Assembly (NCBI GenBank): GCA_007121335.1
Contig: SKLY01000240.1
Span: 1 to 34,937 of the forward strand
Length of the DNA stretch: 34,937 nt
Origin: Saprospiraceae bacterium
Lineage (GTDB): Bacteria > Bacteroidota > Bacteroidia > Chitinophagales > Saprospiraceae
Direction: 5' to 3'
The translations under genes and the position numbers were made by a program. Positions 21,926-31,732 of this stretch are shown in pieces (the first letter of the stretch is position 1; the number at the start of each line of letters is the position of its first letter). Below the pieces are notes generated by a model. That model was not told the origin of the DNA. It worked only from the letters and a program-made list of their open reading frames with translations, and made no database searches.

Positions 21926-22278
21926 GGAGGGGTTAGATTTTTGCGTTTGCATTGAGAATTCGATCGAATAAAGCTTTTGCAAATAGCAGTTTTCCAAAAT
22001 ACAGGCGAATCCGGGTGGCTTCAATCCCCTTTCCACTTCATTTATTAACTTTGTCATCAGGATTTGCTGTCCTGGCAGTAAATTGAGACCACTTATGCGG
22101 TCATTTTTGTAAAAGGTAAATCCACCTGCATTTGAAACTCGTCTTTGAAATCTTCGATGAGGTAACAGGTTGCTTTTCCCGCCGGGTAAAGCTTCATTCG
22201 GTTGGGGATTACTTTATTGAGTCCAAAAGTAAAAAGCTTTCAATCCTTCAGGCTCTTCCAGACCAATTCATCCTCCGG
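21926..22278. other. Gap before the sensor kinase, with possible promoters
   Basis: About 350 bases without a clear gene. It holds a perfect TAACTTTG box (22046-22053) and a one-mismatch CATTTTTG box (22102-22109), both pointing at the sensor kinase. The kinase frame stays open back to a TTG at 22132 but has no ATG, and the translated stretch has no family character. Confidence 0.5.
22046..22053 (+). promoter_or_regulatory. -7 promoter box upstream of the sensor kinase (TAACTTTG)
   Basis: A perfect TAnnTTTG match, about 230 bases before the inferred kinase start. No -33 element is seen. The weaker CATTTTTG at 22102 is an alternative. Confidence 0.4.
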
Positions 22279-25248
22279 TTGAAAACTGTTTATCGACTCA
22301 TTTTACTGCTGGTTAGTTGTGGCTTGATGAGTGCAACTGTTTGGTCTCAGGAACTCATTGTGCCGCACAGACACTACACTCCGCACGATGGTCTGCCGGG
22401 AATCGTCAATCAGCAAGCCATGGAGGACAGCAGGGGCTATGTTTGGATCGCCAGCAATGAGGGGATAGCCTTTTTCAACGGCTACGAATTTAAAATGATT
22501 GAAGACCATCCGGGCTTCAGCACCGAGTTCATACATTTTATCGAGGAGGACCGGGATGGGCGGATGATGTTTCTCAGTGAAACCAACCTGACCATTTACG
22601 ACGGTCGAGAGTTTCTCTCCCTACCTCTGCCGGGCAGGTCCTCGCGTGGGGTAATTCTCGTTCCCGATGATGAAAAATCACCCGTTGTTGCTACCGGAAG
22701 CTTAACATCCCTGCAAGTTTTTGAAGTAGATCAGGACAGTCTGAGTGAGATGGAACCAATCCGGGCCAATCGGGGTGACCGTGTCAGACTCAAAGAGGGA
22801 GAAAAAATGATTTCAGTCTATGAGGACAGGTACTATTTCCTGACGGAGAATAATACCGCAAAATATCAGTTGTTTAACCGCCTTGAAGTGCTGCCCACCA
22901 ATTTGCCTGAGCTGACTTTTTTTCCGGAAATTGGCTTTGTAATGTACCGGCACCTCGATCCACCCTACGATTATTTTACCTACAATCGCAGCAGTCGGGA
23001 GTTCATCGAAATACCCTCTGTAGGTGAGTTTTACGAAGAATACCGTGATCGCTACACTCTTCACCGCAACCCACCCGGGAAAAATGGGGAATATCTCTAC
23101 CTTTCAGAACGGCAATCTCACATGCCGGCATTTGATCTGCAGGGGCATTTTATTTGGAGCGCATTCAAGGATCGCAGTGGACAATTGTGGACTTTAACTG
23201 ACAATGGCCTTTATAAGTTTTTTCTGAATGGGATATTTCAGTTGGAATCAGAACCGGCTTCCACTATTTGGGGTGTGTCGGAATGGGTAGACAGATTGTT
23301 CTTTCACTCTTATCTGGATGGATTGTTCTACCGGGAGGAAGGAGAATGGAAAAACATCCCTAACCCGCACAGCAACGGAGAGTTGTTTCCCGGAAGGGCT
23401 GTAAGTAGCAACAGCCACCACTTTGTACCTGCCTGGGACGGAATTTTCGTCGTGGACAAAGACTTCGAAACCCACTTTTTGGAAACAGACCGCTTTGCAG
23501 AGGGCCTGTATTTTGACAGCCTGACCAATGAGTTGATTGCAGCAGACGAAAACAACCTCTATGTTTTTGACGCAGACAATTTGGACAGGATTGCCTATTT
23601 CCCGCTACCGGCAGAGGCCACTCGCGTCGGGATTTTCAGTATAAGACAATCGGGAGATGATCTCTGGCTCGCAGGTCCCGGTGGTGTTATGCGCTTCAAC
23701 AGAGAGGTTGAGATTTTTGATACTTTTACCCACTCCGGTGGTGAACTGCCCTGCAAAAGTGCCGTCAATATTTTCATAGATGAGTGGGGTGAAATTTGGG
23801 TGAGCGGAAATTGCGGTCTAATGTGGTGGAATGCCGCCAAAGGGCAATTTGAACTGATGGAGGGTTTCGCAAAAAACACCTCCCTGGTTGATATGATTGA
23901 GCTGGGAGAAGGGAAATACCTGGTTAGCGGAAGCACGGGGCTTTTTGCTATTGAGATTTTACGCGACAACAACCCTTCTCATCTTAGAATTCTCAAGGAA
24001 TTTAATCAGTACAACGGTTTTGATGGGATAAAGCCTTTTTTGACCGGATTTTTCAGGGATTCCAGGGATCAAATATGGATACCTGCCGCCACGGGAACTT
24101 ACATGGTAGATGAGCGCATGCTCAATTTGGAGTCGAGTGAGGCAGAGCTAAAGCTCACCTCCATCGATGATTGCCGCTTTCCTTTTAACCAGGAAAAAGA
24201 TACCGTTTACAAATTGCCTTATGGAAAGAATTTTGTCGATGTGGGATTTGATATGGTCTCCTTCAACTGGCCTGGGAATCCCGGATTCCAGTACCGCCTT
24301 GCTGAAAGTGATGAATGGAGTTTGGCCCAGCGCGACCAGCTCATTCGTCTCATTGAACTGGATCACGGTACTCACGAATTGACAATCCGGGCGGTTTTCA
24401 AAGACCGGGATGAAGAGTACTGGCCTTATCTCACGGCCAGGGTAAAGGTGCAACTGCCGGTATGGAGAAGGAGTTGGTTCCCATTATTCGCCGGTGGTTT
24501 TGTGCTATTTTCGGCTTTGGTCATTGCCGGTTCCTGGTTGTACAACTTGCGAATTAGACTTAACCAATTTAAACTTCACAACCACCTCCAATTGATTCAA
24601 ATTCACGCACTGGAAGCTCAACTCGATCCCCATTTCATCTTTAATGTATTGTCCAACATCCAGAAAAAGGTGGTGTTGGAGCAACCGGAGGAGGCCAACA
24701 ATATGATCGTCAAATTGGGAAGACTTATGCGGAGATATCTGGAGTCGGTGGAAACGGGCATTGAGAGCAGCAAGGATATCCACCGGACTAACCTGACCAA
24801 CGAACTGGAATTGATCAATCTCTACCTTGAATTTGAGATGGAAAAATACCCGGATAAATTCACCTACCAAATCGACGTGGCTCCCAATATCGATACGGAT
24901 AAAACAGTGATCCTGCCCATGTTGATTCAACCATTTGTCGAAAACTCGATAAAGCACGGATTTTCCGGAATTGACAGAATGGGAGAAATCGAAGTGAAAC
25001 TCTTACGCCGGAATGACAGCCTGATCATCGAGATAAAAGACAATGGAGTCGGTCGCGCTGCCGCCAATAGACAAAAGCTCGAGCGAGATGACACACCACA
25101 CCGCTCTAAGGGAACCATGTTGGTAAAAAGACGCATTGAGTTGCTTCAAAAACTGGGCTATCGGGTGGATTTGACAATTGAAGACCGGTCTCCCGGTACT
25201 TTGGTAAGGATTATTAGTCCGGTTTTTGAGGACGGAATAAAAGACTAA
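22279..25248 (+). CDS. LytS/YehU-type sensor histidine kinase with periplasmic beta-propeller
   Basis: A 989-residue sensor starting at TTG 22279, where a good signal peptide begins (KTVYRLILLLVSCGLMSATVWSQ). The only in-frame ATG near it is inside that signal. Residues ~25-640 form a periplasmic region of two-component-regulator propeller type. HYTPHDGLPGIVNQQAMEDS is the usual first blade, and repeated DxxGxxW-like turns such as EDSRGYVWIAS, DRSGQLWTL, DEWGEIWVSG and DSRDQIWIPA follow. A Y_Y_Y domain lies at ~647-725 and one membrane helix at ~735-757. The His_kinase domain has LEAQLDPHFIFNVLSNIQ with phospho-acceptor H785, and the ATPase N-box ENSIKHG begins near 888. It probably binds an extracellular glycan or cue and phosphorylates the LytTR regulator that follows. 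Confidence 0.9.
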   Translation: MKTVYRLILLLVSCGLMSATVWSQELIVPHRHYTPHDGLPGIVNQQAMEDSRGYVWIASNEGIAFFNGYEFKMIEDHPGFSTEFIHFIEEDRDGRMMFLSETNLTIYDGREFLSLPLPGRSSRGVILVPDDEKSPVVATGSLTSLQVFEVDQDSLSEMEPIRANRGDRVRLKEGEKMISVYEDRYYFLTENNTAKYQLFNRLEVLPTNLPELTFFPEIGFVMYRHLDPPYDYFTYNRSSREFIEIPSVGEFYEEYRDRYTLHRNPPGKNGEYLYLSERQSHMPAFDLQGHFIWSAFKDRSGQLWTLTDNGLYKFFLNGIFQLESEPASTIWGVSEWVDRLFFHSYLDGLFYREEGEWKNIPNPHSNGELFPGRAVSSNSHHFVPAWDGIFVVDKDFETHFLETDRFAEGLYFDSLTNELIAADENNLYVFDADNLDRIAYFPLPAEATRVGIFSIRQSGDDLWLAGPGGVMRFNREVEIFDTFTHSGGELPCKSAVNIFIDEWGEIWVSGNCGLMWWNAAKGQFELMEGFAKNTSLVDMIELGEGKYLVSGSTGLFAIEILRDNNPSHLRILKEFNQYNGFDGIKPFLTGFFRDSRDQIWIPAATGTYMVDERMLNLESSEAELKLTSIDDCRFPFNQEKDTVYKLPYGKNFVDVGFDMVSFNWPGNPGFQYRLAESDEWSLAQRDQLIRLIELDHGTHELTIRAVFKDRDEEYWPYLTARVKVQLPVWRRSWFPLFAGGFVLFSALVIAGSWLYNLRIRLNQFKLHNHLQLIQIHALEAQLDPHFIFNVLSNIQKKVVLEQPEEANNMIVKLGRLMRRYLESVETGIESSKDIHRTNLTNELELINLYLEFEMEKYPDKFTYQIDVAPNIDTDKTVILPMLIQPFVENSIKHGFSGIDRMGEIEVKLLRRNDSLIIEIKDNGVGRAAANRQKLERDDTPHRSKGTMLVKRRIELLQKLGYRVDLTIEDRSPGTLVRIISPVFEDGIKD

Positions 25249-25293
25249 AATCAACTCACATAAATTATTGTTATCAAATGGTCCTCTTTCCCT

Positions 25294-25316
25294 GACCGGA
25301 TTATCGGTCTATTTTA
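25294..25316 (+). terminator. Weak possible terminator after the sensor kinase
   Basis: GACCG (25294-25298) pairs with CGGTC (25305-25309) around a six-base loop, followed by TATTTTA. The stem is only five pairs. It could separate the kinase transcript from the regulator's own promoter. Confidence 0.3.
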
Positions 25317-25373
25317 GCAAAAATTGATCACAATCTAAAGGCAAAAAACCGGAATTTTTAACCAATTTTTCGC

Positions 25374-25381
25374 TATCTTTG
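25374..25381 (+). promoter_or_regulatory. -7 promoter box of the response regulator (TATCTTTG)
   Basis: A perfect TAnnTTTG match in the 315-base gap between kinase and regulator, about 183 bases before the ATG. It implies a long leader of about 175 bases. The rest of the gap (25249-25563) shows only A/T-rich sequence. Confidence 0.5.
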
Positions 25382-25563
25382 AATCCCAAATAAATCTAAT
25401 CCCGGAGAATTCCAGGATCTTTTTTTCTCCAAAACAAATTAATCTTAGTTGCAATCAAACATACAACTACCACACTCCAAATTTTTTAACGGTAAACCAA
25501 AGGCAAAAACAGGGTACAGCACCCATTGACGTGTAATCACCCGTGCTAAATGATAAGTCAGAC

Positions 25564-26343
25564 ATGAAATTAGATGCCATCATAGTTGAAGACTCCCGGG
25601 ACAACCTGGAAGTACTACAACATTTTATCAAAAAGTATTGCCCGCAGCTCAACATTACAGGAACTGCTGCAACCATCGAGGAGGCTGAAAAATTAATCCG
25701 GTCGGAAAACCCAGACCTCGTTTTTCTGGATATTGTCCTGGACGGGAGGAAGAGTTTTGAACTGCTGGAGCAGTTGGAATCGGAGAGTGGAATCAACTTT
25801 ATGATCATTTTCGTAACTGCACACTCCCGCTTTGATTTTGCCGAAAAAGCCATTGATTATTCGGCAGTTGGATACCTCACCAAGCCCGTGGACAAAGACA
25901 AGTTGAAGTTCGCAGTGAGCAAGGCCATTCGCCTACACCCACATTTTTCCCTGTCTGAAATTCGCGATACTCTCTCTCAACTTGAGAATAAAAAGCCCAA
26001 CCAGCCTGAGTTTTTTAAGATAATTAAATTCAATCAGGTGATAAAAACAGTAAAGCCTGAGGAGGTATCGCATATCGTCGCTGAGCGGGACATATCTATC
26101 GTCTGTCTGACCAATGGCGACAAAGAAAAAAGCAGCCGCTCTTTGGGATTCTATCAACAAGAGCTGGAAAACCACCCAGGTTTTTTTCGCATCCACAACC
26201 AAACCATCGTCAATATCAGGCAGGTTTCCGAGATCAACCGAAAGGACAATCTCGTCATCTTGAGGAATGGTAAGAAGCTAAATTGCTCTCGAAGGATGGG
26301 AAGAGCACTCTACGATTACCTGGCCAGCAGGAAATACGATTGA
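25564..26343 (+). CDS. LytTR-family response regulator
   Basis: A 259-residue transcription regulator. The receiver domain (1-~125) has acidic residues E9 and D10, phospho-acceptor D56 (VFLDIV), T85 and K107 (LTKPVD). The LytTR DNA-binding domain (~155-256) has IVAERDISIVCLTNGD, the recognition-strand region FFRIHNQTIVNIRQVSEI and KLNCSRRMGRAL. It is the natural partner of the upstream propeller kinase. ATG 25564 was preferred over an in-frame GTG at 25543 because the receiver fold begins directly there. LytTR proteins usually bind paired repeats upstream of cell-surface or exopolysaccharide genes; the actual targets are unknown. It ends 21 bases from the convergent giant surface protein gene. 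Confidence 0.93.
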   Translation: MKLDAIIVEDSRDNLEVLQHFIKKYCPQLNITGTAATIEEAEKLIRSENPDLVFLDIVLDGRKSFELLEQLESESGINFMIIFVTAHSRFDFAEKAIDYSAVGYLTKPVDKDKLKFAVSKAIRLHPHFSLSEIRDTLSQLENKKPNQPEFFKIIKFNQVIKTVKPEEVSHIVAERDISIVCLTNGDKEKSSRSLGFYQQELENHPGFFRIHNQTIVNIRQVSEINRKDNLVILRNGKKLNCSRRMGRALYDYLASRKYD

Positions 26344-26364: not shown

Positions 26365-29300
26365 TTAAAACCTCCAGTTCAATCCTCCCGACAATCTGCT
26401 GTGAATACCGTGAAAAGGCATTTCGGAGGTAATATCCAAACCACCGTAAATTTCTGCAGAACCCCACTGTCGAGAAATTGAGAATGAAAAATCCAACTCC
26501 ATTCTGTCAATGGAGACGGGGTCCCAAAAGTTACTGAAGGAACCTCCCTGGAGACTGTTAATACTTAACCGTCGATAGCCGGCTGTCAAAGCTGTTTCGG
26601 CTGATAACGAACCCATTCCCAATCTGACGACCGGTCCCATAGATAGTCCGGAGGCCCTGATATCTGCGCCGGCCGATCCCTGATCCCAATAGAAATGCTG
26701 TATTCCCGAGAGATAGCGGAAGCGGGTTTTCCACCCCAGTGGAAGATTTTCCGCGGGATAGTAATTCAATTCTGAATCCATTTTTGAATTCCAGTAAACC
26801 CGGCTGCTCACATCCTCCCCGTTTTCACCCCAGGGATTTTCCAGTTCTTTTAACTCCCAATCCCATCTGTCCGACACTACATCCGCAACTCCGTTTTTCC
26901 ACCGGAATTCCAGCGGGCTGTTGGCAGTTCCCAGTGTAACGGTCAATGCCTCTGATGCGCAATTTAAATTATCAAATACCAGAAGTTCGTATGTTCCCGG
27001 GGAAAGGTTGTCAAATTCATAGACCTGACCGGATGTGGTGCCGTGGAATTCATTATTCAGATAGAGCGAATAGGATGGGTTGCCGCCGTTTATAGATACT
27101 GTAATGGAACCATCATTCTGATTCGGTCCACCCGGATTGGTGGTACTTACCAAAGAGAGTTCAACAGAAGATTCGGTCAGGTGAAGTTCACCCTGAATGT
27201 TTTGGGTACATCTGGAAGGAATTCCCTGCGGCAAAGCGGAGATCAGGTACAAATCAGCCTCCAAATAACCAAAGTAGTCACTGAGATCAACCGATACGGG
27301 GCTTTCGAAAAACGAGGAATTAAATATTCCGGGGCCATTAACCGTGACGCGTACTGGTCCACCTTCAGGGTTTCTCAGGTGAAGTGTTATCTCAGGACCG
27401 TTGAAACATCCTTCTGAAAAGAATTGGCTATCCGTAATCCAATTGGGATCCAGTTCGCCGAGTGTAGTATTGAAAATTAAACTGCACTGCAACAACTCAT
27501 CCGTGATGGTTACCTCGTATCCCCCTGTACTCAAATCTTCATTCAGTGCACCCTCAGTGCCATTGCTCCATTGAAATGTGTAATCCGCAGGAGGGTCCGG
27601 GACCACCTCCAGTGAACCATTGCTAAAACCACAATCGGGTTTTTCAATGATAAATTCCACATCAAAATCACAGGGGGGCAACTCAACCACTATAGTAAAT
27701 AAGGCGGTATCCAATGTACCGCAGACATCCTCCACGAAAAATTGGACCTCAATGACACCCTTCTCGGGGATGGTGGATTCAAAACTTCCCAAACCCATTG
27801 AATCGATCGTCAAATCTCCAAAATCGGCTGGCTCGAAAGCTGTCACTCTGAGTTGTGTCCCGAAGGCATTTGCCAGCAGATTAAATGACACAAAATCCCC
27901 TGATAAAACCTCAATTTCTTTATCCCGCGCCTCAATGGGCAGTGGTTGTTCAACAAGCTCCAAAACTAAACTATCGCTCAGTTCGCAGTCGAGGGATTGA
28001 TCGCGGACTACAATTAGATATTCCCCCGGACCGATTTCGAGAAATTCCGAAAGTGCAATTCCGGTTTCCATCGTTTCAATGACAGTACTTTCCCCCGGTC
28101 CTTCGACGGTCAATTCAAAATCCCCATCACCGGGACTGGTCAACTCCAGTTCTATTTCACCCTCTTTAATACAGGTGGGGTCCTCCACAGTAAAGGCTTC
28201 AATATACTTCGGCGCTCTTTCAGGAATGGTGTAGGGAATGGTGATGGTGTCGGATTCAAATCCCTCACCCGATAAAATGAGTACGACTTCATAGTCTCCT
28301 GCACTTTGTTCCATGAGCGTATCTGCGGCACTGTCATCGTGCCAGATCAATTCGTAATCGCAGGCTGTTTCAATCTCAAAATAGGCAGCTCCATTGGAAA
28401 TTCCGCAGTCTGCCGTATCGACGGTTATTTCAAATTCCCGCTGGCATTCAACCGGCAGTATTTCAATAAAGACCAGACCGGTATCAATTCCCCCACAACT
28501 GTCTACCAGCACATAGAAAAAATCAACTTCTCCGACAAAATTTTCCCCGGGAACGTAGGTCATTTCCCCTGTGGAATCCAGTTCGAGACTTCCTTCTTGA
28601 GGCTCACTGTGGGATTCTATTGTTAGTATGTGTCCAATGTCGTTGCTCATAATATTGGCAACCAGAGTATCGGTTATCAATATCTCAAAGGTGTCATTCA
28701 CTGCCTCAGGGGGAAGATTTTCCAGTTCAAATTCGTAAGATTCCGTGCATTGCGTGGTGGTATCGGTTATTGTTAAACTGTATGTGCCGGCGTTCAGGTT
28801 TTCAATAAAAGAGCTGTCCCCGCCATTGGACCAGTCGTAAATAAAGTTTTCATCACCATTGGTTCCAATGCGGATGGAGCCGTCAGCTTCTCCGCAATCT
28901 GGATCGGAAATTTCAAAGTCCACAGCGATATCACAAGGCAGAACATGTATTCTGAGCAGTGCTGTTTTGTCCTGGCCACAGGTATCCACAGCGGTGTATT
29001 CCAGCACTATTTCTCCGCTTTGGTCCTCCGGGGCCCAATAGGTAAAAGCTCCGTCCTCTGCCACCTCTATCTCTCCAAAATCTGGATCGTCAATTGCAGT
29101 CAATTCTAAACCGGTACCCAGGTCGTTGGAAAGTAGATTGCCACTCACTTCTTCTCCTTGCAAAACAGAAGTTTCCACATTATTCAGGACCATTTCCAGC
29201 GGCAATTCTTCCAGGCTTATCTGTTGTTGTGAGGCGCATTCCTCCCCCGCTGTTTCATCGTAAACGGTGAGGGTGTATTCACCTTCGGGAAAGAACTTTC

Positions 29301-30882
29301 CTTCCCATATTTCTGTCAGGGAAAAACTGCCCGACCAGCTCTGCAAATTGGCTGTGAGGTTGGTTTCCGGTCCTTCGAGTTCTACCACCGGGCTACCCGG
29401 CCCATCAAAGTCAAAGGTCCATTGCGCATCGGGGGTTTCGAGACAATTTCCCGCACTGGTTGTATTAAAACCCCAGTGCTCCACGGGATTCTCCTCTACT
29501 TCGACCTCGCCCTCGTATTCGCAATCATTGTTCAGATCGGTTATAGTGTAGGAAAAACTGCCTGAACTCAGTCCGGCTCTTTCAAAAATTTCTGACCCAT
29601 CCTGCCAACGAATTTGAAAGTCCCCTTCCTGTTCAGGAGTGACCGTGATCCTGCCATTTTCAAGACCGCAGTCCTCCGCTGCAGTCTCCACCTGAAACCC
29701 GGCATCGCAAACCGCTTCCACCCATATACGCACTGTCGACTGTGCACTTTGCCCGCATTCATCCAGCACTTCAAACGGCACCTCAACCCATCCGCTGAAA
29801 TTGCTCTCGGACTCGTAATTATAGTTGCCATCGGGGGAAATATTGACGGTTCCACTGACTCCCTGAGAGAATTCAACCACTTCGCAACCGCTGCAGGAGG
29901 CACCTTCGAGGACATTACCGCTGAGTTGCTCCCCGGCGGTTACTTCCCTTTCAAGCTCCTGAATATCAATCACAGGCAATTGTACTTCAACAATTACCGA
30001 TGCGGTTCCACTCTGATCGTGGTTGTCTGTGACTGAGTAGGTCAACTGCACACTCTCAGACAAACCGGGAAAAATAACTATGGTGGACGGGGGATTAAAA
30101 GTACCGATTTCACCGGTCAATCCACTTACATCGGTAACAGTCATTCCATCGCCTTCGTCGTTTTCCAGAGGGTTTATTTCTGCGCCATCAGGGCAGGTCA
30201 ATTCCACAAGCAGGTCATTTACGATCAGTGCAGGGGTGGTGTCCGGGGGTGGTTGTGTAGGAGGGTCCTCTTCTTCTCTATCTGCAGCAAGTAACCATAC
30301 CCCTCCACCTACCGCAGCCGCTGAAGCAGGTGCATACCACGGAATGTCTCTGATGGTAAAGGGCTTTGAACGGGCACCGGTTAGCTCCAATTTATTCCAG
30401 ACATCAATACTGGTGACATAGTCCACTTGTTGGACATTAAATGAACTTTCGGGCAAAGTAGCGTGGAAAAAAGTAGTACCCGACTCATCTATCGAGAGGT
30501 CCATCGTCTCGGAATGGGTCTTACCGGATTCATCTGTCCACGATACACGCACTTCAAAATCGCCGGATTCCGGGAAGAAAAACAAGGCTCCAGGTGTCTC
30601 TCTGAAAGCAATTGGAAGCAATCCTTCGGAATCTCTCATTTCCCAACGAACCAGAAAGGGCTCTTCATCACTGTTGACTTGGAACCAAATTCCGGGCCCC
30701 CTTTCACCCTCCTCCGGTTGAATGACAGCCAGAGGTTTTGCAATACCCCAATCCTCGGGTATTTCCAGAGGCTGGTCTGATTGGCCTGAGAGTTGAAAAC
30801 AAGCAAAAAACACAGTACACAGGATGCACAGCATTGTTTTGATGGAGTAAACTCCTGTCGCCAAATCCACTAATTTTCTCAC
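26365..30882 (-). CDS. Giant modular surface protein: cadherin-like and SprB-like repeats with a C-terminal barrel
   Basis: Residues are counted from codon 30921; the translated start is probably GTG 30882 (residue 14), TTG 30864 or ATG 30834, since the first codons lie inside a -7 box. A signal peptide ends near SGQS (44-48). An Ig-like N-domain (~50-190) is followed by a hydrophobic stretch (IPWYAPASAAAVGGGVWLLA, ~193-212) and a proline-rich linker. Modules then alternate. Cadherin/VCBS-like A units (~230, 325, 585, 740, 1000) have NxLxND or VLEG turns and a D-CG pair. SprB-like B units (~404, 664, 826, 1084, 1252) have DCG-NG openings and GTYSLTITD endings. A third C unit (~480, 903, 1158) carries EGPG/NGPG. 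Residues ~1340-1518 are alternating strands ending in GGLNWRF, as in outer-membrane barrels. It is probably an adhesin or surface scaffold. Confidence 0.8.
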   Translation of the reverse strand: MRKLVDLATGVYSIKTMLCILCTVFFACFQLSGQSDQPLEIPEDWGIAKPLAVIQPEEGERGPGIWFQVNSDEEPFLVRWEMRDSEGLLPIAFRETPGALFFFPESGDFEVRVSWTDESGKTHSETMDLSIDESGTTFFHATLPESSFNVQQVDYVTSIDVWNKLELTGARSKPFTIRDIPWYAPASAAAVGGGVWLLAADREEEDPPTQPPPDTTPALIVNDLLVELTCPDGAEINPLENDEGDGMTVTDVSGLTGEIGTFNPPSTIVIFPGLSESVQLTYSVTDNHDQSGTASVIVEVQLPVIDIQELEREVTAGEQLSGNVLEGASCSGCEVVEFSQGVSGTVNISPDGNYNYESESNFSGWVEVPFEVLDECGQSAQSTVRIWVEAVCDAGFQVETAAEDCGLENGRITVTPEQEGDFQIRWQDGSEIFERAGLSSGSFSYTITDLNNDCEYEGEVEVEENPVEHWGFNTTSAGNCLETPDAQWTFDFDGPGSPVVELEGPETNLTANLQSWSGSFSLTEIWEGKFFPEGEYTLTVYDETAGEECASQQQISLEELPLEMVLNNVETSVLQGEEVSGNLLSNDLGTGLELTAIDDPDFGEIEVAEDGAFTYWAPEDQSGEIVLEYTAVDTCGQDKTALLRIHVLPCDIAVDFEISDPDCGEADGSIRIGTNGDENFIYDWSNGGDSSFIENLNAGTYSLTITDTTTQCTESYEFELENLPPEAVNDTFEILITDTLVANIMSNDIGHILTIESHSEPQEGSLELDSTGEMTYVPGENFVGEVDFFYVLVDSCGGIDTGLVFIEILPVECQREFEITVDTADCGISNGAAYFEIETACDYELIWHDDSAADTLMEQSAGDYEVVLILSGEGFESDTITIPYTIPERAPKYIEAFTVEDPTCIKEGEIELELTSPGDGDFELTVEGPGESTVIETMETGIALSEFLEIGPGEYLIVVRDQSLDCELSDSLVLELVEQPLPIEARDKEIEVLSGDFVSFNLLANAFGTQLRVTAFEPADFGDLTIDSMGLGSFESTIPEKGVIEVQFFVEDVCGTLDTALFTIVVELPPCDFDVEFIIEKPDCGFSNGSLEVVPDPPADYTFQWSNGTEGALNEDLSTGGYEVTITDELLQCSLIFNTTLGELDPNWITDSQFFSEGCFNGPEITLHLRNPEGGPVRVTVNGPGIFNSSFFESPVSVDLSDYFGYLEADLYLISALPQGIPSRCTQNIQGELHLTESSVELSLVSTTNPGGPNQNDGSITVSINGGNPSYSLYLNNEFHGTTSGQVYEFDNLSPGTYELLVFDNLNCASEALTVTLGTANSPLEFRWKNGVADVVSDRWDWELKELENPWGENGEDVSSRVYWNSKMDSELNYYPAENLPLGWKTRFRYLSGIQHFYWDQGSAGADIRASGLSMGPVVRLGMGSLSAETALTAGYRRLSINSLQGGSFSNFWDPVSIDRMELDFSFSISRQWGSAEIYGGLDITSEMPFHGIHSRLSGGLNWRF

Positions 30883-30918
30883 TTTTATAATTCGCCTGTT
30901 TGCAGATGCCTTTAGCGA

Positions 30919-30926
30919 CAAAGGTA
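30919..30926 (-). promoter_or_regulatory. -7 promoter box of the giant surface protein (TACCTTTG)
   Basis: A perfect TAnnTTTG match. Transcription would begin near 30912, which rules out the TTG at 30921 as start codon and leaves GTG 30882, TTG 30864 or ATG 30834. No -33 element is seen. Confidence 0.5.
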
Positions 30927-30975: not shown

Positions 30976-31629
30976 CTACTTGCTCGCAGTTCTTTTTTTT
31001 CCAGGTCGCTCGTCTTTGGGCGGCATGGTACCAAATACCCGGTCCCAAAAAGTGTTGGAAACTCCAAAGGCTTTGTCGGGGTATTTGTAATGGTGCAGAT
31101 TGTGGTGAATCCAAAGAGGTTTGAGAAACTCCGGTGGCTTGAATTTATGAATCGAGAAGTGAACGAAAGAGTACATCAGATAACCGGCAAAAAAACCGGG
31201 AAAGAAAGCCCAGGTAAGCTGTGGTTGACCAAAAAGAAGGAAGATTAGGTAGAAAATTAAGAATAGTAAGGATGCCATAATCAAACCGGGCACCGGCGGC
31301 ATCAGCAATCGGGACTCATCGCGCGGGTGGTCGTGATGTACGCCGTGCATCAGGTAGTGCATGCGCATTACAATTTTGGAGTCGGAGATCCAGTGGAAGA
31401 GATAGCGGTGCAACAAATACTCCGCCAGTGTCCAAAAGAAGAAGGCGAAAACAAACAAACCGGCTACAGTCACTGCCGGGAGCCCCTTAGTCACCAAAGC
31501 AACGTAGAGCAGGGCAATTATTACCAGAAAGTAAACCACCACACTGGTCAGGGGGGTTGTTTTGGTCAGGGAATTTAAAAAGTCATTCTTAAATAGTCTG
31601 GCTTCTTTGGTCGGATTGGTCTTTTCCAT
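30976..31629 (-). CDS. Fatty acid hydroxylase superfamily membrane enzyme
   Basis: A 217-residue membrane protein of the sterol desaturase / fatty acid 2-hydroxylase superfamily, a di-iron oxygenase. The histidine clusters are complete: HRYLFH (74-79), HYLMHGVHHDH (91-101), HFSIH (157-161) and HHNLHH (175-180), with the family-typical GVSNTFWDRVFGT (189-201) near the end. Four hydrophobic segments are seen. Eukaryotic FA2H and its bacterial relatives put a 2-hydroxyl on acyl chains, often of sphingolipids, so a role in hydroxylated membrane lipids is likely. Sterol-like or carotenoid substrates are less likely. ATG 31629 is used; an upstream TTG eight codons earlier is a poorer start. Confidence 0.92.
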   Translation of the reverse strand: MEKTNPTKEARLFKNDFLNSLTKTTPLTSVVVYFLVIIALLYVALVTKGLPAVTVAGLFVFAFFFWTLAEYLLHRYLFHWISDSKIVMRMHYLMHGVHHDHPRDESRLLMPPVPGLIMASLLFLIFYLIFLLFGQPQLTWAFFPGFFAGYLMYSFVHFSIHKFKPPEFLKPLWIHHNLHHYKYPDKAFGVSNTFWDRVFGTMPPKDERPGKKRTASK

Positions 31630-31732
31630 TTGTACTTCTCTTGTAATCTTCAACGATTATGGTAACACAAAAGCAAGCTCAAAAATTCCCGATTTGGAGG
31701 TGAGTATTCAGGTCGGTTTCCCATAATTCTAA

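Follow-up and report, generated by a model that had tools for sequence, protein, structure and literature searches.

A probable bead-repeat surface protein of Saprospiraceae in which a conserved hydrophobic segment near the N-terminus accompanies a barrel-like C-terminal domain

In Bacteroidota, display of giant proteins on the cell surface is usually attributed to type IX secretion. A different arrangement, type Vf, is exemplified by BabA, SabA, and HopQ, with BapA named as the prototype in one review. In these Helicobacter Hop adhesins, the passenger is a giant loop that follows strand 1 of an eight-stranded barrel (PMC6555100, PMC8151025), whereas SprB leaves the cell via type IX and is held by a second protein, the 14-stranded PorP-like SprF (PMC9143113). 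Here, we analyzed a 34,937-nucleotide stretch from a draft genome of a Saprospiraceae bacterium (contig SKLY01000240.1 of assembly GCA_007121335.1, hereafter the window), which encodes a protein, referred to below as the stalk protein, composed of a signal peptide, an immunoglobulin (Ig)/PKD-like domain, a conserved motif plus hydrophobic stretch (N-segment), thirteen beads, and a C-terminal domain. The strongest result of this analysis is that the N-segment and the barrel-like C-terminal domain most likely form a coupled anchor pair.

A profile made from the N-segment only was searched over the family, the order, and the phylum. In the order, matches were obtained in 24 of 398 genomes and 18 of 165 genera, nearly all from the same family and some from two others; the phylum-wide search gave nothing convincing outside the order, where four weak matches in short reading frames aligned mainly with the hydrophobic part and were attributed to chance. 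The close relatives in GTDB are metagenome assemblies of Saprospirales/Saprospiraceae and an uncultured Lewinella. All complete genes fetched by this profile alone (26/26) end in a barrel-like tail of 140-200 residues, the tails of loci L137 and L144 being less clear than the others; relatives with a tail were counted in this way from the N-segment side, and the scan for sorting domains described below covered 38 tails. Between the two ends, the passengers differ, comprising cadherin/SprB beads, HYR-like beads, or Dictyostelium-type repeats. A protein of 3077 residues from another family of the order (L138:599-9829, plus strand) has 75 matches to PF00526, the Dictyostelium slime-mould repeat, between N-segment and tail; a passenger of this type was also recognized, by reading, in a 3141-residue protein from another family of the order (L143:3194-12616, minus strand), the Pfam scan having covered L138 only. 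The same genome encodes a paralogue of 1137 residues on contig C275 (L021:502-3912, plus strand), in which N-segment and tail are kept, with a shorter and differently ordered stalk. Because both ends stay together while the middle changes, they most likely constitute one anchoring device. A literature search of incomplete coverage found no published description of such a doubly anchored family, and these surface proteins of the order are apparently undescribed so far.

Common to all relatives is the motif W-x-x-[IL]-[DE]-[LI]-T-x4-K-[P] near the mature N-terminus, followed by about 20 apolar, glycine-rich residues with W-x-P at their start and then, usually, by an acidic run. The original prediction for this protein had overlooked this N-proximal hydrophobic segment, which is the most conserved part of the protein, defines the family, and alters the likely topology. 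Its position varies, from a few residues past the signal peptide in some relatives to behind 300-500 residues of unrelated N-terminal domains in others; at the place of the Ig/PKD-like domain of the stalk protein (residues 58-146), relatives have other domains or nothing. In all of the family the segment is of borderline hydrophobicity (approximate dG mostly +0.4 to +2.3, the hydrophobicity and strand scales used here being simplified and their values comparative only), as would be expected if it has to pass Sec and insert elsewhere. Profile matches to PDB entries (best E 0.021) aligned mainly with the hydrophobic part and were dismissed as chance. Among the domains that precede the N-segment, one is common to L052, L086, L089, L136, L138, L143, and L144 (SGLIGxLTVxNxS...VIPxSxGxQGYV...GYCxxV) and received no Pfam name in the members scanned. 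Those of L053:9293-13300 and L028:293-4144 look coiled-coil-like and SH3-like, respectively, with no Pfam match over threshold, an appearance that would suit a periplasmic location.

At the other end of the stalk protein, an AlphaFold2 model built from ten sequences placed a confident last bead ahead of seven long antiparallel strands (residues 1375-1517), with a mean pLDDT of about 60 and a pTM of 0.36; the barrel model of a relative gave 6/7 strands at a pLDDT of 25-45. In Foldseek and VIA-align, the bead resembled Ig/FN3 domains, and the strands matched parts of outer-membrane barrels, among them OmpX (TM 0.46 by target length) and 3qlb (Z 9.1 over 143 residues); the VIA-align rows were mostly Ig-bead matches and carry little information on the barrel beyond 3qlb. 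The chain ends in SGGLNWRF, in agreement with the GGLNWRF reported originally, and its last six residues match exactly the GXX-aromatic-X-aromatic consensus of the β-signal read by the β-barrel assembly machinery (BAM) (PMC13067283). A looser form of this pattern was present in 19 of the 38 family tails versus 1.75 expected from shuffles, a count that includes close relatives and hence some pseudo-replication. Compared to the stalk, the last ~185 residues are enriched in aromatic residues and K/R, depleted of D/E, and devoid of Cys; the same comparison for the last 165 residues of relatives showed more aromatics (29/30), more K/R (28/30), and less D/E (29/30), and these tails are also poorer in Cys. 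A dynamic-programming strand score exceeded that of shuffles in 24/24 tails of relatives, with a mean z of 2.4 versus 1.3 for the stalk control. Used as a single-sequence query against 199 genomes of the order, the barrel matched only the window protein, because this domain diverges too fast. Altogether, the model and composition suggest that residues 1334-1518 form a small outer-membrane barrel, whose closure is inferred. The barrel-like end proposed at the outset is thus supported by a β-signal kept in relatives and by a strand-rich model, but not in the form of a closed barrel, given seven strands at low confidence.

We assign a probability of roughly one in two to the reading that the protein is a self-anchored surface stalk, with a barrel built by BAM and an exposed loop fixed at both ends. 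The signal peptide would direct Sec export, and GLNWRF would be recognized by the BAM complex, giving a small outer-membrane barrel with seven or perhaps eight strands. The Ig-like beads would come to lie outside the cell while the W..L.LT....KP motif would remain periplasmic, and the hydrophobic N-segment would cross the outer membrane, either as an α-helix or by supplying the first strand that the barrel lacks, which would make the stalk a giant exposed loop. The argument for this topology starts from the C-terminal β-signal, which places the C-terminus in the periplasm; in the AlphaFold2 model, short turns connect strands 1-2, 3-4, and 5-6, and long loops the remaining ones, which is the normal pattern. 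Counted back from the C-terminus, seven strands let the domain begin on the cell exterior, together with the last bead, whereas eight put both in the periplasm. Since an additional amphipathic strand upstream of the seven was not significant against shuffles (26 domains, Fisher p 0.81), seven strands, and with them an outside stalk, are favored; the length and variability of the stalk also favor this location. If the stalk is external while the N-terminus remains internal, an outer-membrane crossing by the N-segment is required. Adhesion is probably the function, by analogy with other stalks of Ig beads. The self-anchored stalk of the original prediction thereby stands as the best reading of the data.

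Several points weigh against this reading. The barrel is weak in both structure models, and an ordinary barrel would not close with seven strands. The tails of relatives are alike by features, without significant sequence alignment among them. Known examples of outer-membrane α-helices, such as those of Wza and GspD, belong to oligomers that are not BAM-dependent, and a helical N-segment would for this reason be unusual (PMC13067283). Barrel closure, the outside stalk, the crossing by the N-segment, and adhesion are inferred. Finally, in the smallest members the tail beyond the last bead measures ~140 residues, as much as the eight-stranded OmpX, with a strand-like stretch (such as LQIRIGW or FSFGTGLIF) directly after that bead; should this stretch be a membrane strand, the stalk would point into the periplasm. 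The last two observations lead to an alternative that we consider unlikely, in which the C-terminal domain is a full eight-stranded OmpX/OmpA-like barrel that includes this stretch, the stalk is periplasmic, and some other protein of the envelope provides a docking site for the N-segment. The short periplasmic-type turns and long loops fit its periplasmic C-terminus, but the eighth strand was built by neither model and is not significant against shuffles, and stalks of 1000-2500 residues with a variable number of beads, or with up to 75 Dictyostelium-type repeats, would seem too long for the periplasm.

A self-anchored stalk could also be a true type Vf protein, in which an eight-stranded barrel would take its strand 1 from the N-segment and strands 2-8 from the C-terminal domain, with the stalk as extracellular loop 1. 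Seven C-terminal strands plus one N-terminal crossing element reproduce the layout of the Helicobacter Hop proteins (PMC6555100, PMC8151025). However, the ~20 residues of the N-segment, uniformly apolar and glycine-rich with a W-x-P start, resemble a helix rather than an alternating strand, the segment of one relative was modeled as a helix (residues 62-79) at low confidence, and no member scanned had an Hp_OMP or autotransporter match in Pfam. We consider this variant distinctly unlikely; it is a sub-case of the self-anchored stalk, from which it differs only in the state of the N-segment.

The host genome offers a rich background of type IX cargo. In the 3.1-Mb draft, type IX sorting domains above cut-off occur in about 92 proteins for type A and in 20 for type B, and the corresponding models (TIGR04183 and TIGR04131, respectively) score well on other proteins of the genome. 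Neither matched the stalk protein, confirming the earlier claim that it lacks a type IX C-terminal sorting domain, and none of the 38 family tails had such a match. Sorting domains are present in further SprB/Ig proteins encoded on contigs C119, C199, C228, and C245 of the genome, but absent from the stalk protein and its C275 paralogue. The type IX cargo read here ends mostly in basic residues, not in an aromatic β-signal. None of the eight PorP_SprF matches in the genome is on the contig of the stalk gene, which has no cognate porP/sprF gene beside it. A match to the NCBIfam model "invert_tail" (one member, E 0.0024) could be traced neither to a member nor to a paper under that name and was treated as noise. 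It would be in keeping with this cargo set, and with SprB repeats typical of it, if the stalk protein were type IX cargo with an undescribed sorting domain and an accidental resemblance to a barrel, and the top Foldseek match is GhpA of the related Aureispira, reported to be type IX cargo (PMC11205867). The GhpA match, however, stems from the Ig beads, with no sequence similarity at 0.01 in a phmmer search of PDB sequences that included GhpA fragments; this and the sorting-domain and C-terminal residue data above make type IX export highly unlikely.

A classical autotransporter, whose C-terminal pore would let the passenger of the same chain out, as the original wording "autotransporter-like" might imply, is hardly credible: the signal peptide, N-terminal passenger, and barrel-like C-terminal domain would suit it, but a domain of 140-185 residues is far too small for a 12-stranded pore, the AlphaFold2 model contains no pore-spanning linker helix in the low-confidence stretch between last bead and strands, and the stalk protein has no Autotransporter match in Pfam. 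An inverse autotransporter (type Ve) was rejected because the barrel-like domain is C-terminal, not N-terminal and 12-stranded.

The module classes of the stalk were tested by pairwise scores against shuffles, and the order A, A-B-C, A-B, A-B-C, A-B-C, B, read originally from the translation, proved correct. Classes A and B were clear (z up to about 25), with A1 and the last B weaker, while class C is held together via C2 (z of 5-7 with C1 and 8-10 with C3), the pair C1-C3 being not significant. The turn ascribed to class C was borne out as EGPG in C2 and NGPG in C3; C1 reads EGPE instead. By a Pfam scan of the stalk protein, class A corresponds to Big_9/Cadherin and class C has no name, and SprB, whose repeats mark SprB-type gliding adhesins, passed threshold once, in the last B (residues 1268-1290, E 3e-7). 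A bead of this last type next to the barrel is kept in nearly all relatives. The coordinates of all features are collected in Table 1.

Table 1. Features of the stalk gene and its product; positions refer to the window.
Feature	Position	Strand	Basis or remark
Whole open reading frame	26365..30921	minus	1518 amino acids from TTG; likely start GTG 30882, or ATG 30834
Signal peptide (...CILCTVFFACFQLSGQ|S), residues 14-46	30784..30882	minus	most hydrophobic N-terminal segment; counterpart in all relatives read
N-terminal Ig/PKD-like domain, residues 58-146	30484..30750	minus	read against relatives
Conserved motif WNKLELTGARSKP, residues 175-187	30361..30399	minus	alignment; no variation of W and K among 23 relatives
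Conserved hydrophobic segment PWYAPASAAAVGGGVWLLAA, residues 194-213, then DREEEDPP	30283..30342	minus	hydrophobicity and alignment
Module A1 (cadherin/Big_9-like)	29974..30228	minus	Pfam; pairwise scores
Module A2	29710..29973	minus	Pfam; pairwise scores
Module B1 (SprB-like)	29488..29709	minus	pairwise scores
Module C1 (EGPE turn)	29203..29487	minus	pairwise scores
Module A3	28936..29202	minus	Pfam; pairwise scores
Module B2	28711..28935	minus	pairwise scores
Module A4	28450..28710	minus	Pfam; pairwise scores
Module B3	28219..28449	minus	pairwise scores
Module C2 (EGPG turn)	27946..28218	minus	pairwise scores
Module A5	27676..27945	minus	pairwise scores
Module B4	27451..27675	minus	pairwise scores
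Module C3 (NGPG turn)	27169..27450	minus	pairwise scores
Module B5, SprB-type bead adjoining the barrel	26923..27168	minus	Pfam SprB; modeled as confident Ig/FN3-like domain
C-terminal barrel-like anchor (putative), residues 1334-1518	26368..26922	minus	seven modeled strands, 1375-1517
C-terminal β-signal GLNWRF (GXX-aromatic-X-aromatic)	26368..26385	minus	sequence; family count; consensus from PMC13067283

The stalk gene is on the minus strand, an orientation that the original prediction does not give. The in-frame GTG at 30882 is a plausible start of the stalk gene, as it provides a K/R-rich n-region ahead of the hydrophobic core and so a normal signal peptide. Directly upstream lies a gene of the fatty acid hydroxylase superfamily (FA_hydroxylase; 30976-31653, minus strand); orthologues on L046, L047, L048, and L049 show the same gene order, and the two genes may thus be co-transcribed. 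Convergent with the stalk gene are a two-component-propeller histidine kinase gene and then a LytTR response regulator gene (22132-26343, plus strand), a pair that adjoins the stalk gene in L047 too and has a similar counterpart near the paralogue in L054 (11136-15012).

Altogether, the results suggest a previously unnoticed way of holding large proteins on the surface of these bacteria, by a family that lacks a type IX signal, would carry its own barrel, and occurs beside about 110 type IX cargo proteins in one genome. If the self-anchored stalk is real, these bacteria would possess another path for large adhesins, encoded by a single gene and open to exchange of the passenger, and the family would bear on whether type Vf-like interrupted barrels had more than one origin and on how a hydrophobic segment passes Sec and then settles in the outer membrane. 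It is possible, if rather doubtful, that these proteins constitute a new type IX-independent display class, with the giant exposed loop between an N-side transmembrane α-helix and a C-side seven-stranded barrel; such a protein would be a BAM substrate that also sets an α-helix in the outer membrane, and a cassette for very different passengers.

Compared to known systems, the stalk protein shares SprB repeats, a giant (in its case putative) surface stalk, and a Bacteroidota host with SprB and other adhesins that have a type B C-terminal sorting domain, but it lacks that domain and carries its barrel within the same chain. GhpA, the grappling hook of Aureispira, which also belongs to Saprospiraceae, is likewise a large Ig-bead surface protein and the top structural match of the bead; it differs in being reported as heptameric type IX cargo. 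Like the stalk protein, whose barrel is putative, intimin and invasin (type Ve) combine a stalk of Ig beads with a barrel and, in some cases, a periplasmic N-domain, but theirs is an N-terminal 12-stranded barrel with a free passenger end, in contrast to a small C-terminal barrel and a stalk between two anchors. As a self-anchored stalk, the protein would have in common with type Vf proteins a small barrel, an exposed adhesin-like domain after the first membrane-crossing element, and seven remaining strands at the C-terminus (PMC6555100, PMC8151025). Unlike them, the stalk protein, which has no sequence match to them, bears Ig/SprB or other repeats in place of the helical Hop passenger, its N-segment looks helical, and its host is one of the Bacteroidota, while type Vf has been described as confined to Helicobacter pylori. 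Judged by this comparison, the stalk protein, without being homologous to the type Vf adhesins, would most likely work like one of them.

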